DNA of 64,000 nucleotides, taken from the NCBI GenBank assembly GCA_016758965.1, contig JAEPRB010000144.1, forward strand, positions 1-64,000. Direction: 5' to 3'. Positions 18,992 through 40,760 of the stretch are shown here, one piece after another. The translations under genes and the position numbers were made by a program. A model generated the notes under the pieces. That model was given only the letters and a program-made list of their open reading frames with translations, had not been told where the DNA came from and ran no database searches. How positions within the stretch are numbered: position 1 is the stretch's first letter; every line of letters begins with the position of its first letter. The DNA comes from Circinella minor. Its lineage: Eukaryota > Mucoromycota > Mucoromycetes > Mucorales > Lichtheimiaceae.

Positions 18992-21315
18992 TATATATAT
19001 ATAAAAAAATAAAAGAGGGTAAAAGTAAAGAAAGAAGTATGTTTTGCATATAATGTGGGTTTGTCTGGTTATGAAAAATTAACAAAAAAATTTCAAGTCA
19101 CTGAGTAACTTTTTTTTTTTTTTTTTACCTGGCTCTTGTTTGATTTAATCTTATGCACATCCTTCATATTATTTCTTTTTTTTGTTGGCGCCGCCATTGT
19201 TATCAAAATAGGATTAATGTAAAAATCAAAAAAGTTAATTAACTAATGGAATTTTTATTCAAATAGTTCCGATGGCAGTCAGATTTTTATAATAAGAGAC
19301 AACGAACATTTTTGTTCTAGATTTTGACTTTGTAACTTACTCTTCTAAATTAGGGATCAACTGAATAGTTGATACTGACAAAAACACACTCTTTTAATTG
19401 AATAAAAAAGAAAAGCTTCCGTGGGTCTAGGCGTTTAGAAAAAAGAAATAAAGAAAAAAGACCAGCGGTAGTACCTAGAATTGATAGTTTGCTGCTGATA
19501 ATATCAGCTTATCCAAAAAAAGATAAGTTTATCTTGGCAACAAAAAGGCGCCAACTATTGTGCCTTCTTTTTAGTAACCCAAGATCGAGTATTTGTATCC
19601 ATCCGACCTCCGTGCATGCATTACATCAACTATACTACGATAGAATATTCTTTTTTTTCCTATTTGTCATTACAACAATACATTAAATCATTTGTATCTT
19701 TTATATAGATAATCCATTCATGTATCGAAGAAAAAGGTGGTGATGATCATAGAAAATGTATAGACCAGTAACTGGTCGTTTTTCCCCTCATCCCCACAAA
19801 CAATTCTATCTCCGTCGTTCTTAAGAAATCGAAATCGTATTCTCACTCTCACAATCATTTAATTAATTTTATACATTTTAAAACAAAAGCTTGCTCAGGC
19901 TTAGCAAAAATAATTTTTACTTGGTATCGCCACGTGGTTTATTTTTCGGTTTTTTTTTTTTTTTTTTGGTGATCATGTATTATTACTTATGTATATTATG
20001 TTTAGAGACAAAAGAAAAAGATACCCCACTTTATATTTTTTAATGAAAAAAAAAAGTGTTCCGGAACGATCATTGATAATGATAATAGTTATAATAATAA
20101 TTTATGATTATAATAGTAATGATGACGATGACGATAATATGATGTTAAAGCTTAAATAATAATTATACTCGTCATTTTTTTTTTCTAAAAGCAATCTGCA
20201 GCTATGTTTGTAACACAAAAGAAAAAAAAATGCCACGTTTTTTGACGATTTGAAAGTGTTACAGTAGATATCCTCATCAGTCTGTTAAAAAAAACAGGAT
20301 ACAAATCAATATATAGTATTATATATTATTAACATATATGTCAATTATGAGTTACATCTATTCTTCCCTTCTCTTAGACAACAACAACAACAACAACAAT
20401 AAGAACAAATCATTTTTATATAAGATTATTATTTAGTATCACAAAAAATTATTGAATATTCGTCAAGTCAATACTTTTGTTATTGTTAGTATTATGCCAA
20501 GCAGTAAAAATACTAATTGATTGATTATATTAGCATTTACCAAATATTATCTTAATGTACCTTTATGTATATTTCATATTTATTACTATATAGTATACAA
20601 TATATTTGCAGTTAACCTGATTATATCCGGCGCGCTACGACAGAGAAAGAAATTTTTGTTTCATAAAAAAAAAAAGTAAAAACCAATAAACGCATTGGGT
20701 ACGTAAAAATCTGTGCGACGTCGATTCACGGAATCGGAGAGGTTCCTCAAGAATAAAATTACGTATACGTACAAAAAAAAAAAAGATAGTATATAGTGGT
20801 ATATAGTGACCTTGATGAATATGAAGTTTATGTTCTTAATAATGGAATTTATTACCAGCTTCTTTTTTATTTTTGTTTTTTATTTTTTAATTACTAATAA
20901 AAGAATAGAAAACTGATATATGAAAAAGAAACAGAAAAATTAAGCGCGCCAAAATTATGATAAGGACGATATGAGTGAGGAGTAAGAACCCTATTTAATC
21001 CCTGTATTTTTTGTGTTGGTGCCATCATTTTAAAAAGCTTACCATTTTAAGTAATTAATGGAAATGACCGGTGTGACACATCAGGCGTTAATAATTATAA
21101 TACAAGTATATGTATACATATAAATTGGATTTGACGTAAAGATTCATGGTCGAGTTTTTTTTTTATTTCTTTGTATAAAAGCAAACGTAACAATCAATTT
21201 TGTTCTTTATTTTTTTTTCTCTTTTCTTTTTCATAAAATTAATCATCTCATTCGTTCTTTTATTATTCTTTATCTTTTTACTTTCTTTTATCAATTTAAA
21301 TAAACATTGTATCTC
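18992..21315. other. Intergenic region upstream of zinc-finger gene 1
   Basis: About 2.3 kb of AT-rich sequence with A/T tracts, GAT/ATA repeats (20070-20145) and a CAA repeat (20385-20400). The last 150 bases resemble the region before the second zinc-finger gene (see that entry), so the duplication includes promoter or 5' UTR. No gene recognised. Confidence 0.5.
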
Positions 21316-21837
21316 ATGGCAACATATCCTATTATTAGAAACCATCATTACCGTCAAGACCAACAGCAACAAGAAACAGCTATAGAACATGAAGAAGCTT
21401 TATTGAACTATTGTGCTACTTGCAACAAGAGTTTTACTCGTAAAAGAGATTTACATCGACATTTACGTTCGGCTCGAGCCCATGTCAACAATGGTAATAT
21501 AGAAAATGGTGGTTATCCATGTCGTATGTGTGCCAAGGTTTTTACTCGACGAGATATACGACAGAAACATGAAGGAAATAGAAGTTGCATGAAACAATAT
21601 TCCCGTTTTCTTCGTGATGCAAGGTCTTGGATACGTTCATCGTTACCATTTTCATTATCAGCATCACCATATGAAACTATACCAGAAGCCGCTGTAGCAG
21701 GACTATCAGCAGCAGAAAATGATTCTTACTATAATAGTGATAATCAAAGTGTCATAACAGAGAGTACTCAGGATGATTGTTCCGTAGACACTCCATCTTC
21801 TTTAAGTACGACAACGTCATTTTCCACCTTTTCCTAG
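21316..21837 (+). CDS. C2H2-type zinc-finger protein, copy 1
   Basis: Small putative DNA-binding protein of 173 residues with no intron. I start at ATG 21316 (MATYPIIRNHHYRQD); the frame is open for three more codons but without an ATG, and the paralogue also begins MAT. Two adjacent fingers are visible. The first is C-x2-C-x12-H-x6-H (CATCNKSFTRKRDLHRHLRS); the second is C-x2-C-x12-H-x5-C (CRMCAKVFTRRDIRQKHEG then NRSC), a C2HC variant. The spacing of the final histidine in the first finger is one longer than usual. The C-terminus is Ser/Thr/Asp-rich and acidic and could activate transcription. A close paralogue lies 2.1 kb downstream in the same orientation. Target genes are unknown. Confidence 0.85.
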   Translation: MATYPIIRNHHYRQDQQQQETAIEHEEALLNYCATCNKSFTRKRDLHRHLRSARAHVNNGNIENGGYPCRMCAKVFTRRDIRQKHEGNRSCMKQYSRFLRDARSWIRSSLPFSLSASPYETIPEAAVAGLSAAENDSYYNSDNQSVITESTQDDCSVDTPSSLSTTTSFSTFS

Positions 21838-23916: not shown

Positions 23917-24408
23917 ATGGCGACACGTTCTAGTACATCATATAATCGCCACCAACACCAGTGTCGACAGGATTCAGCAGTAGAAAATGAAAAAGATTTG
24001 GTGCATTATTGTATTACTTGTAACAAGGGTTTTACGCGTAAAAGAGACTTAAATCGACATTTGCGTACGACTCGAGTACATGTCAAGTACAGTAATATAA
24101 AAAATGGCGGTTATCCATGTCGTATGTGTGCCAAGGTTTTTACCCAACAAGATTCACTACAGAAGCATGAAGGGAATAAAAGCTGCATGAAGCGATATTT
24201 TCAATTTCTTCGCGGTGCAGAAGTATGGATGGATTCGTTACTATGTGAAACTCCAACAATAGAATTTGTAGAGCCCACAACACCAGAAACTGACTATTAT
24301 AATAGTGATACTCAAAGTATTACAATAACTGATATCCAGGATGATAACTCCGTGGAGACTCTTCCTTCTTCGTTGAGCACAACGGGATCATTCCCTACCT
24401 ATTCTTAA
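23917..24408 (+). CDS. C2H2-type zinc-finger protein, copy 2
   Basis: Paralogue of the gene at 21316, 163 residues, intronless, ATG 23917 to TAA 24406-24408. It keeps both fingers: CITCNKGFTRKRDLNRHLRT (H-x6-H form) and CRMCAKVFTQQDSLQKHEGN with the terminal Cys (KSC). It also keeps the linker NGGYPCRMCAKVF and the acidic Ser/Thr-rich tail (YYNSDTQSITITDIQDDNSV, close to copy 1's YYNSDNQSVITESTQDD). The N-terminus has diverged. Fingers and tail motifs are far better conserved than the linkers, which suggests both copies are under selection. Confidence 0.85.
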   Translation: MATRSSTSYNRHQHQCRQDSAVENEKDLVHYCITCNKGFTRKRDLNRHLRTTRVHVKYSNIKNGGYPCRMCAKVFTQQDSLQKHEGNKSCMKRYFQFLRGAEVWMDSLLCETPTIEFVEPTTPETDYYNSDTQSITITDIQDDNSVETLPSSLSTTGSFPTYS

Positions 24409-27130: not shown

Positions 27131-27138
27131 TATATAAA
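27131..27138 (+). promoter_or_regulatory. TATA box of the micro-exon secreted-peptide gene
   Basis: TATATAAA lies 62 bp before the ATG at 27200. A T-rich stretch and a pyrimidine/CA-rich leader (CATCAAACATCAAC) lie between. The spacing suits a transcription start near 27165 and a short 5' UTR. Confidence 0.55.
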
Positions 27139-27199: not shown

Positions 27200-29205
27200 A
27201 TGAGATTTTCTACTATTATTTTATCCGCCTGTCTTTTGGTTCTTTCCTCAGCATACACAAGTATTGCTCAACCAATTGGTACCACTGAAAATGCTGATGG
27301 TACCACTGCCAGTCATGAAAGAGTTGGTAAGTTATAATATAAGGAAGTGAGGGCTCAGGTTTTTTTTATAATAGAAAAAAAAAACAAATACTAACAGAAT
27401 TCATTGTAAAAATTATAAATGACATTTATTACTTTAAAATCAAATATGTGGATTATCAATCAATAGCCCGTAAGTAAAAAATAATAAAGTAGGGCTAACA
27501 TTTCATAAAAAATCAATACTAACAAAATATATTGTAAAAATTATAAATGACATCCAATATATTAAAATCAAATGTCTGTATTATTATTTTAGGTGGTAAG
27601 TTAAAAACTAAAAAAGTGTAGTCAAGATTTTTTCTTATAATAATGGTACAAAAAGAACATATACTAACAGAATTCATTGTTAAATTATAAATGATACTCA
27701 TTACTTTAAAACCAAATGTATGGATTGTTAATAGGATGTAAGTTAAAAAATAAGAAAGTAGAGTTGTTAATCTTTGTTATGATGGCACATAAAGAATTAA
27801 TACTAACATAATTCATTGAAAAATTTATAAATGACATTCATTACTTTAAAATCAAATGTGTTGGTTATAAATAGGCAGTAAGTTAAAAAATAAAGGAGTG
27901 GACTTAATGTTTTTTTATGATGATAGAAAAAAGAACAAGTACTAACAGAATTCATCGTGAAATTAAAAATGACATACATTACTTTAAAACCAAATGTGTG
28001 GGTTCATTATTTTAGCCGGTAAGTTAAAAATAAGGGAGTGGGTTAACCTTTGTTACGTATGATGGCACAAAAAAGATCAAATATTAACAGAATTTAAAAA
28101 ATGACAAATAACATCCATTACTTTAAAACCAAACTTGTGGATTACTAATAGTCGGTAAGTAGTGGAATTCACGTTTTTTAGAATGGCAGAAAAAAGAACA
28201 AATACTAACAGAATTCATTGTAAAAATTATAAATGGTATCCAATATTTTAAAACCAATTGTGTGAATTATTAACAGTCAGTAAGTTACAAATAAAGGGAC
28301 GAGGTTGACGTTTCTTGTAATGACAAAAAAAAAAGAGCAAATACTAACAGAACTCATTAAAAAAATTTATAAATGACATTCATTACCTTAAAATCAACTG
28401 TGTGGTTTATAAATAGATGGTAAGTTGAAAAATAAAAAAGTGTAGTCAAGGTTTCTTATAATTCCAAAAGAAAGGCAGATACTAACATAATTTACTTCAA
28501 AAATTATAAATGTCACTCATTACTTTAAAACAAATGTGTGAATTATTAATAGATTGTAAGTAGTGTAGTTAATGTTTTTTTATAATGGCACATAAAAAAA
28601 CACATACTAACAGTATCCATTGTAAAAATGATAAATGATATTCATTCTTTAAATCCAAATGTTTGGATTACGTATTAATAGCCCGTAAGTAAAAAAAATA
28701 ATAAAGTGGGGTTAAGATTTCTTATAATGCCATAAAAAAATCAATACTAACAGAATTTATCATAAAAATTATAAATGACATACACTACTTCGAAACCAAA
28801 TGTGTCAATCATTATTAGAACGTAAGTTAAAAATAAGGGAATGGAATTGACCTTTGTTATGATGGCTCAAGAAAAAGCAAATACTAACAGAACTCATTTG
28901 TAAAAATTATAAATGATAACTATTACTTTAAAATCAAATGTGTTGAATATTAATAGGCAGTAAGTTAAAAATAAACTAGTAGTTAAGGTTTCTTATAATG
29001 GCACAAAAAAGAACAGATACTAACAGAATTCATTGTAAAAAATTATAAATGGCATTTGTGTACTTTGAAACCTACTGTGTGGATTATGTATTAATAGTTT
29101 GTAAGTTAAAAAATAAGGAAGTGGAGTTAACGTTTTCGTAAAGGCAAAAATACTTTTATAGAACCAAATACTAACAGAGTTCATTGTAAAATTATAGGCT
29201 TTTAA
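27200..29205 (+). CDS. Secreted peptide precursor encoded by 13 consecutive 3-nt exons
   Basis: Exon 1 (27200-27326) encodes a signal peptide (MRFSTIILSACLLVLSSAYT, likely cut after SIA) and a short polar pro-region ending SHERV, in phase 1. Then come 13 candidate exons of three bases each: 27467 CCC, 27593 GTG, 27735 GAT, 27875 GCA, 28016 CCG, 28152 TCG, 28277 TCA, 28417 ATG, 28553 ATT, 28682 CCC, 28819 AAC, 28957 GCA, 29098 TTT. Every intron begins GTAAGT and ends AG. Joined in phase 1 they read ARGCTVVNDSQRI without a stop. The last exon is uncertain. The first usable AG (29197) adds CF and a stop at 29203-29205, for 57 residues with two Cys. A later AG (29220) adds FIGLKSYNRNQGPDH and a stop at 29265-29267, for 70 residues. 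A TATA box is upstream. The product is presumably a small exported peptide; its role is unknown. Confidence 0.6.
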
Positions 29206-29220
29206 AACCAGAAAATACAG
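27327..29220 (+). repeat. Tandem array of 14 related introns separated by variable triplets
   Basis: Introns start at 27327, 27470, 27596, 27738, 27878, 28019, 28155, 28280, 28420, 28556, 28685, 28822, 28960 and 29101. The first 13 are 122-140 nt long. Each has GTAAGT, a T-rich middle, TACTAAC (TATTAAC in the sixth), then a conserved tract (about ATTATAAATGACATTCATTA, CTTTAAAACCAAATGTGTGG) ending mostly in TTAATAG, TTTTAG or AAATAG. Between that AG and the next GTAAGT there are always exactly three bases. Apart from an AG directly after the branch site, no AG occurs before the terminal one in any of the 13 complete units. The triplets are about 54 percent GC in an array that is about three-quarters AT. 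Units 2 and 11 (both following CCC), and 7 and 10, share sub-type sequence, pointing to block duplication. Confidence 0.85.
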
Positions 29221-29267
29221 TCATTGGGTTGAAGTCATATAATAGAAACCAAGGGCCAGACCATTAG

Positions 29268-39600: not shown

Positions 39601-40760
39601 TTCTTTGAGTAGGTTTACATAAATCGGAAAGTTTACCATGCATGCCTAATAATAATAATAATAATAATAATGAGAATTATTCCTTTTTTTTAAAAAACAG
39701 CCCATTTTGCCTAGTATCTACTGATATTTGATCTGCATGAATAAAAGTACCTGGGAAAATTTGTTTCATCAGATTCAAGCATTCACTAAATTTGGTCTCC
39801 TTTTCTGATTCTTTTTGACCAATTTTTGCTTCCATCAACTTGTTTAAGATCTCTTGTAATTGTTCATTCAATTCAACTTCACGTTGACTATATAAAAGCA
39901 AATAAAAACATTATTGTTAGTAAAAAAAAAGACATGTTGAAAATGAGAAGCTTTTATCCTATGCTCCTCTCTATTTATTTATTTATCTATCTAGCTGTAC
40001 ACATGTATCCACATACACACATACGCACACGCATAATCATTTAAAGAAATGAAACTTACTGAGTAGTTTTACGTTCATTTTCCAAGGATTCCAATTCCTT
40101 CTTTTGGATTTCCAATTCTTCAGCCACTGTTTGTGCTTCCATTGTAAGAGCATTACCATCTTCTGTTAATTGTCGCTGATCTTCAAGAAGTTGTTGTTTT
40201 CTTGTTTTGAATTCTTCAGTTTTTGAACCAATATGTTTAAGATTTTCTTGTTCCATACGATATTGACGTCGTAAATTGTCTAATTGTTGTTCTTCATTAA
40301 TTGCTCGTATGCTCACTTGTTGCTTTCTATATAAATATTACGGTTGCTTAATATGCACGAAAGAGTCTTGTTCTTTCTTTTTATCCTTTGTCTTTCTTTT
40401 ATACATATCAAGTATATAAGTATTCATGAACTTACAATTGCTCATATCCTTCAATTTGTTCTGCAGTCAATATAGGACCTTCGATTAATCCACTCTTGGG
40501 TAATGATTCTTCATATTCTTGAGATGCTTTTTGTAATTTAGTCATGTTTTGTTCAAGATTTTGTACTACATCAGTCTTAAAAATATGATCATCACGGTTA
40601 GTATATATATGTATATATATACTATTTATTATTGTTATTAGCTTACTATTTTACCTGTTGATCATGTTCACGTTTTAAACGTTCACCTGTATTTTTAGTT
40701 TGATCCAATTTCTTTTGGATATGTTTAACTTGTTCTTCCATTCCTAAGAGTGCTGGACTC

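Follow-up and report, generated by a model that had tools for sequence, protein, structure and literature searches.

Genes divided into many very small exons have been described from schistosomes and aphids. In Schistosoma mansoni, 35 micro-exon genes (MEGs) carry exons of 6-81 bp (3-81 bp according to the abstract of the same source), mostly of 15 bp, separated by introns of 0.1-5 kb (PMC10526429), and the bicycle genes of aphids average ~17 exons in phase 2, with megacycle genes containing more than 100 micro-exons (PMC9168663). Individual exons can be shorter still, such as the 1-nt exons of plant APC11/VPS55 (PMC8831610) and the 3-bp exon of Drosophila homothorax (hth) (PMC7392893), while near-identical introns are found inserted into many genes as introner elements (PMC9860276) or as the stwintron families of fungi, which likewise occupy many genes (PMC12403724). 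Here we describe a gene of Circinella minor (Mucorales, Lichtheimiaceae) within a window of 64,000 nt (positions 1 to 64,000 of contig JAEPRB010000144.1, assembly GCA_016758965.1), in which a signal-peptide-like exon is followed by 13 successive candidate exons of one codon each. Contigs of this assembly (46.6 Mb, 619 contigs) are abbreviated as C144, C235 and so forth, the window being C144. An arbuscular mycorrhizal origin of the DNA, suggested by its low GC content and TACTAAC sites, was considered and rejected: among the full-length fungal matches listed, the alpha-tubulin of the window is closest to that of Circinella umbellata (98%), and a sister-gene protein described below matches C. 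minor at 100%. No description of single-codon-exon arrays, or of this gene family, was found among the open-licence papers listed in literature searches, as judged by titles and the beginnings of abstracts. To our knowledge, gene splitting this extreme is known from nowhere else.

A preliminary description of the locus had proposed a micro-exon gene taken to one codon per exon and encoding a small secreted peptide, and the analysis supports this proposal, with splicing and secretion being deduced from sequence. Exon 1 (27200-27326, forward strand, as are all features of the window gene) comprises 127 nt from the ATG at 27200, encodes the signal-peptide-like start MRFSTIILSACLLVLSSAYTSIAQ and a short linker, ends in phase 1, and is identified by its sequence and its matches elsewhere in the genome; a TATA-like box (TATATAA, 27131-27137) lies 69 nt upstream of the ATG. 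Intron 1 (27327-27466), itself a member of the repeated intron family, leads to the first of 13 successive AG|NNN|GTAAGT units spanning 27467-29100. Each of the 13 triplets listed in the preliminary description was recovered in place and directly flanked by AG and GTAAGT: CCC (27467-27469), GTG (27593-27595), GAT (27735-27737), GCA (27875-27877), CCG (28016-28018), TCG (28152-28154), TCA (28277-28279), ATG (28417-28419), ATT (28553-28555), CCC (28682-28684), AAC (28819-28821), GCA (28957-28959) and TTT (29098-29100). Introns 2-13 (27470-29097) are of 122-139 nt each; the 13 introns preceding micro-exons (122-140 nt) are mutually related, and a tandem-repeat finder assigns the array a period of 140. 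The intron signals that had been reported, a GTAAGT donor, a TACTAAC-type branch motif and a terminal AG, are all present, the branch motif being found in every one of these introns (12 TACTAAC, 1 TATTAAC) at 63-73 nt upstream of the AG. The window has 17 copies of AGNNNGTAAGT, whereas 100 shuffled versions average 1.5 and never exceed 5; 14 of the 17 fall within 27322-29106, corresponding to the exon-1 donor and the 13 units. The phase-1 end of exon 1 and the stop-free joined reading were also reproduced, the joined exons giving ...HERV|ARGCTVVNDSQRI.

We consider it probable (roughly 0.86) that this gene and its relatives are constitutively spliced, rapidly diversifying secreted-peptide genes in which essentially each codon is split by an intron, assembled from ~140-bp units that are duplicated and lost. 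The arrays, their single shared frame, their strong splice signals and the existence of a family are plainly present in the DNA, and the case for one-codon exons is carried by the common frame, the absence of stops from consecutive joins only, the bias in codon position, the AG-free zones at the 3' ends of the introns, and the likeness of twelve genes.

The analogy to schistosome MEGs that had been offered for this locus holds for architecture. In both cases secreted proteins (predicted here) are encoded by many tiny exons whose lengths are mostly multiples of three, and both are difficult for automatic annotation; in the present genes a signal-peptide-like exon, recognized by eye, precedes many exons of multiple-of-three length. 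The analogy does not extend to sequence, as no kinship with MEG or bicycle proteins appeared among the matches to a profile search (696 candidates) or in a Pfam scan of four joined proteins. The systems also differ in scale: 282 of 290 exons parsed here are of 3 nt and the introns, ~137 nt, belong to one repeat family, whereas the available portion of the schistosome source gives exons of mostly ~15 bp and introns of 0.1-5 kb. Together with MEGs, the bicycle genes offer the closest parallel. They and the megacycle genes are likewise a divergent family of putative effectors with many small internal exons of a single phase, although that phase is 2 rather than the phase 1 found here (at the exon-1 donor in 12/12 genes), and the part of that source available to us mentions neither single-codon exons nor tandemly copied introns (PMC9168663). 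The isolated ultra-short exons noted above show that spliceosomes are able to include 1-3 nt, as proposed for the present genes, but, as far as the accessible text indicates, they occur singly in ordinary genes and not in arrays. Unlike introners and stwintrons, the introns described here are, among the matches listed, confined to the arrays and to one array remnant. A further parallel lies in the conotoxin and other venom-peptide genes, which similarly combine a conserved signal peptide and introns with a hypervariable mature peptide; that peptide is contained in one or a few ordinary exons, however, and the organisms are unrelated.

The window gene is not solitary. At the DNA level its exon 1 matches 15 other places in the genome (71-83% identity), and in total there are 12 array genes and one truncated remnant, with 8 to at least 52 micro-exons per gene. 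Our parser recognized 13 loci and 290 units, distributed as 13 on C144, 18, 18 and 12 on C85, 18, 43 and 51 on C235, 14 on C240, 32 on C321, 11 on C201, 8 on C243, 29 on C323 and 23 on C469. The last two both break off inside an array at a contig end, in compatible orientation, and so probably represent two parts of a single gene with 52 or more units, from which the count of twelve genes follows; assembly of the long arrays may be imperfect. The remnant, at C181:36178-36575 on the reverse strand, lacks exon 1 and keeps the terminal region together with a few units. In all 12 genes exon 1 opens with a hydrophobic segment (MKYSTI or MKYSTT in most) after which comes AQ (assigned by eye), and a search that imposes no phase identifies only one donor-like site in it, which is in phase 1; a TATA-like box is located 67-74 nt upstream of the ATG in 9/12. 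The genome contains 99 matches to the strict pattern TACTAAC-N55-85-TAATAG-NNN-GTAAGT, as against 0 in a reversed control, all of the matches listed lying in array contigs, and a looser pattern yields 49 genome matches against 5 in the control, with 2 of the 49 (C20, C23) outside the array contigs. As a background check, the array pattern was run against viral contigs and gave one isolated match apiece in 8 of them. The family has so far been seen only in Circinella.

We turn to the history of the units, which bears upon the alternative that the arrays did not grow by duplication of intron-plus-codon units but originated by repeated introner-like insertion into a pre-existing ordinary exon, each codon receiving one intron. 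In favour of insertion, in a sample of 9,000 unit pairs from the whole family triplet identity remains at chance (0.30) until intron identity exceeds ~0.9, and some pairs are found whose flanks are 98-99% identical and whose codons differ; units 17 and 24 of C321a have 1 mismatch in 131 flank bases, yet carry TTC and CTA. Furthermore, introners bordered by target duplications of 3-9 bp do exist, in the available text of one source (PMC9860276). On the other hand, insertion would have to strike every codon in the same phase, and runs of neighbouring units have been copied with their order preserved (units 16-17 as 23-24 in C321a; 10-12 as 32-34 in C235b), while C323 has seven successive AAG units with near-identical flanks. 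A similarity search of the genome with the units gave at least 185 matches, and every match listed belonged either to an array locus or to the C181 remnant. We therefore regard an origin by insertion as unlikely.

The same block duplicates, together with triplets that differ more than their flanks, argue that the units are spread by duplication and that the codons afterwards diverge ~4-7x faster than the flanks. When triplet and flank differences were compared in reciprocal-best duplicated units outside C323/C469, 5/21 triplet positions differed against 30/895 in the flanks for 7 pairs (p=0.00055), 8/39 against 83/1670 for 13 pairs (p=0.00057), and 35/93 against 374/3877 for 31 pairs (p=4.5e-13); the 8 pairs within C323/C469 gave 2/24 against 14/989 (p=0.045). 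Some duplicated units have retained their codon (TTG TTG CTG in C235b), and a position-matched comparison of the paralogues C235b and C235c gave identities of 86% for introns and 73% for triplets. Diversifying selection is the usual cause of such fast codon change and would be its cause here as well, while a mutational process focused on the exon may be an alternative.

If the triplets are exons, the order in which they are joined should be visible in the reading frame, and for these tests the eight units with exons of other than 3 nt were excluded. Consecutive phase-1 joins contain 0 stops in 282 codons, relative to a mean of 6.4 when unit order is shuffled within each gene (P=0.0002), and the result persists upon removal of C323, C469 and the C235c paralogue (0 stops/181 vs 5.65 expected, P=0.0007). 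Joins that skip one exon contain 7/269 stops (6.06 in shuffles), and those that skip 2, 3 or 4 exons contain 3/256, 4/243 and 4/230, which is not significantly below shuffles; the fraction of shuffles at or below the observed count is 0.77, 0.13, 0.35 and 0.43 for skips of 1, 2, 3 and 4 exons, respectively. Measured against a codon usage reference of 2471 codons from eleven hand-picked open reading frames (ORFs) of the window, the triplets fit best in phase 1, with a mean log codon frequency of -3.90; phase 0 gives -4.56 and one stop, and phase 2 gives -5.08 and 31 stops. Codon likelihood is above that of shuffled order for consecutive joins (z=3.7) and is not raised at longer spans (z<=0.5). 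The triplets have a GC content of 45% vs 26% for the introns, and the joined peptides are protein-like, as with DELIKIAAAHLDAMGKCFQDVVTCASGTQAQAG (C321a), IDTIRDQIRAIVAELRGAIGDQKAELRARLDEIVAEIREILRE (C235b) and ETNPNVKNFIASLFNSLAS (C235a). We had also entertained helical amphipathicity as proof of coding, and dropped it as too weak.

These observations bear directly upon a combinatorial use of the micro-exons, in which many different subsets of the symmetric 3-nt exons are left out, such that each gene yields a library of peptides. Any 3-nt exon could indeed be skipped without a change of frame, and in the accessible text on MEGs their isoforms are attributed mainly to alternative splicing of central exons (PMC10526429). 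Yet freedom from stops and a raised codon likelihood are seen for consecutive joins only. Such a pattern would be expected of constitutive inclusion and not of combinatorial skipping, and we judge the latter quite improbable.

The introns (93-156 nt, median 137, over the 290 parsed in the whole family) have the features of functional spliceosomal introns at the level of sequence, namely a donor, a branch site and an AG-free zone up to the acceptor. GTAAGT is the donor in 248/290, and a branch motif is recognized in 266/290 (an exact TACTAAC in 199), its median distance to the acceptor being 68 nt. In the zone from branch to acceptor, AG is observed 7 times, and in 5/266 introns, where base composition predicts 672, and it is common upstream of the branch site (0.078 per nt). 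In parsing the arrays a 3-nt exon was preferred and lengths of 3, 6, 9, 2 and 0 were allowed, which gave 282 exons of 3 nt, 5 of 6, 1 of 9, 1 of 2 and 1 of 0, such that 288/290 are of 3, 6 or 9 nt; two units with AGTAG ahead of the triplet were scored as 3 nt, for which the first AG would yield 6. A length-free test was applied to each array GTAAGT with TACTAAC in the preceding 130 bases by taking the first AG at least 9 nt beyond the branch A. The gap from this AG to GTAAGT was 3 nt in 163/168 cases, the exceptions being gaps of 0, 2 and 18 nt (once each) and 6 nt (twice).

Recursive splice sites are known to exist, and the array might be a tandem repeat that lies in an untranslated region or a single long intron, with exon 1 spliced to the terminal exon and the intervening junctions being unused or serving as recursive-splicing intermediates. 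In favour of this, one unit, in C235c, does consist of a bare AG|GTAAGT. We nevertheless hold this reading to be very improbable, as unused junctions account neither for stop-free consecutive joins, nor for a coding-type composition, nor for triplets that vary faster than their flanks, and the retention of 3-nt spacing in all but five of the cases above also speaks against it.

A number of observations weigh against constitutive splicing of single-codon exons as we propose it. A 2-nt exon in C85c (position 109443) shifts the frame, a junction in C235c (position 40699, reverse strand) is of zero length, being in frame with its neighbours, and C243 has lost an acceptor AG; together these may signify decay at some loci. 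No branch motif was recognized in 24/290 introns, and the terminal acceptor is ambiguous, with two sites in competition. When stop codons are left out, the codon likelihood of consecutive joins is only weakly above shuffles (z=1.7), such that the stop test carries most of the order signal, and helical amphipathicity exceeds that of shuffled order in 3/10 genes only, at an uncorrected p<0.05. Last, searches of the genome for an uninterrupted copy of the joined C321a and C235b peptides, run without a positive control, gave no match at E<=10, and hence no intronless parent was found. That the family is a relic, once spliced in this manner and now composed mostly of pseudogenes, would accommodate the 2-nt exon, the lost AG and the C181 remnant, but there is very little chance of it given that none of the 13 parsed loci has an in-frame stop in its joined array, the AG-free zones are nearly intact, and a TATA-like box is preserved in most of the genes.

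It is reasonable to postulate, then, that constitutive splicing of these genes would proceed as follows. Exon 1 would supply the signal-peptide-like start and the short linker, and the tandem ~140-bp units, each an intron and a 3-nt exon, would supply a variable C-terminal peptide interrupted by a phase-1 intron in essentially every codon. The spliceosome would act by intron definition: a 3-nt exon is too small for recognition as such, and introns of ~137 nt with near-perfect donor and branch signals are likely to be recognized as units in their own right. Removal would probably follow a 5'-to-3' order, which would relieve crowding, as excision of one intron leaves its triplet within a long upstream exon for the next donor. 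All micro-exons would be included constitutively, and a retained intron would introduce an in-frame stop in 281/290 cases. The terminal exon would then add a few residues and the stop, and for the window gene this would result in a precursor of 57 residues ending in ARGCTVVNDSQRICF.

Where the arrays end was considered in 12 terminal regions, C323 breaking off short of its gene end. The first AG well beyond the branch site, at +22 to +26, is a candidate acceptor in 11/12 regions (10 detected by script and that of C235c by eye; C243 lacks it). It would give the in-frame ends CF, C, C, DPKN, ALRD, DSKN, RPQN, IIEN, CAPNQ and GI, and 8 residues in the frame-shifted C85c; in so doing it would extend the helix of C235b and provide a second cysteine to the window gene and to C85a and a fourth to C85b, and C201 would have one. 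A second candidate lies at +70 to +80, as measured in ten regions, at the end of the conserved GAAGTCATATAATAG. The genome has 7 exact copies of this sequence, each of them where an array ends; with one mismatch it occurs at four more array ends and in C181, such that 11/12 array genes have it with at most one mismatch and C85a is without it. We favour the first AG as terminal acceptor, since, besides extending the helix of C235b and adding cysteines, it conforms to the first-AG rule seen elsewhere in the array. In the window gene, the terminal intron would accordingly span 29101-29197 and the terminal coding exon 29198-29205, reading C F stop (T|GC TTT TAA), while the copy of GAAGTCATATAATAG at 29231-29245, delimited by alignment and by its exact genomic copies, would be an alternative acceptor (leading to a T|AA stop) or an untranslated element.

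Beyond the arrays, five sister genes share the same exon 1 and have an ordinary second exon. In four of these the second exon is cysteine-rich, with the motif GCYNGYCW...WCYTT...CAGSC (C216 ~35597-35110; C211 near 13550, 11460 and 7790; all on the reverse strand), for which distant matches occur in eukaryote and metagenome-type sources. The protein of the C216 sister gene matches INT45_013343 of Circinella minor at 100% identity, its second match being at 77%, and a comparison of two of the cysteine-rich second exons with solved structures gave nothing convincing. The fifth, C321b (~19425-19014, reverse strand), has a second exon that appears defensin-like by eye, contains an in-frame stop within exon 1, and is situated ~4 kb upstream of the array gene C321a. 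As a separate observation, a segment of C211 downstream of a sister gene (~6700-6400) resembles, by eye, the DNA-binding region of pogo/CENP-B type transposases.

A profile of 11 joined array proteins found only 2 proteins at E<=10 among the 696 candidates, both of them gene models of Circinella umbellata that carry exon 1 but no recognizable array product. The Pfam scan, which covered six proteins including the four joined array products, returned no family above cut-off. Since this exon 1 precedes an ordinary cysteine-rich exon in the sister genes, the array products are most likely diversifying bioactive or antagonistic secreted peptides. The signal-peptide-like start, the hypervariable short tails, the paired cysteines or helices of some products and the cysteine-rich sister genes point to putative secreted peptides for conflict or recognition.

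With units gained or lost singly or a few at a time, the arrays would lengthen or shorten by whole codons with the frame intact. More tentatively, and with a chance that we would place at about one in three, the architecture may itself be a means of evolving proteins one codon at a time, in which interchangeable, homologous introns around every codon allow recombination to insert, delete, duplicate or swap single residues with no risk to the frame, the codons greatly outpace their flanks under very strong diversifying selection or through mutation focused on the exon, and a panel of secreted peptides for recognition or antagonism results. In any case, the genes indicate a route by which proteins could lengthen, shorten and diversify by single codons. 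Should transcripts confirm the splicing proposed here, runs of up to ~50 consecutive single-codon exons would constitute an extreme test of exon finding by the spliceosome, and a natural system for ordered intron removal and escape from the limits of exon recognition. As standard gene prediction is unlikely to detect such genes, similar families may go unnoticed elsewhere.

Elsewhere in the window, two similar forward-strand ORFs near the array gene (21307-21837 and 23917-24408) encode C2H2 zinc-finger-like motifs and appear to be a duplicate pair.

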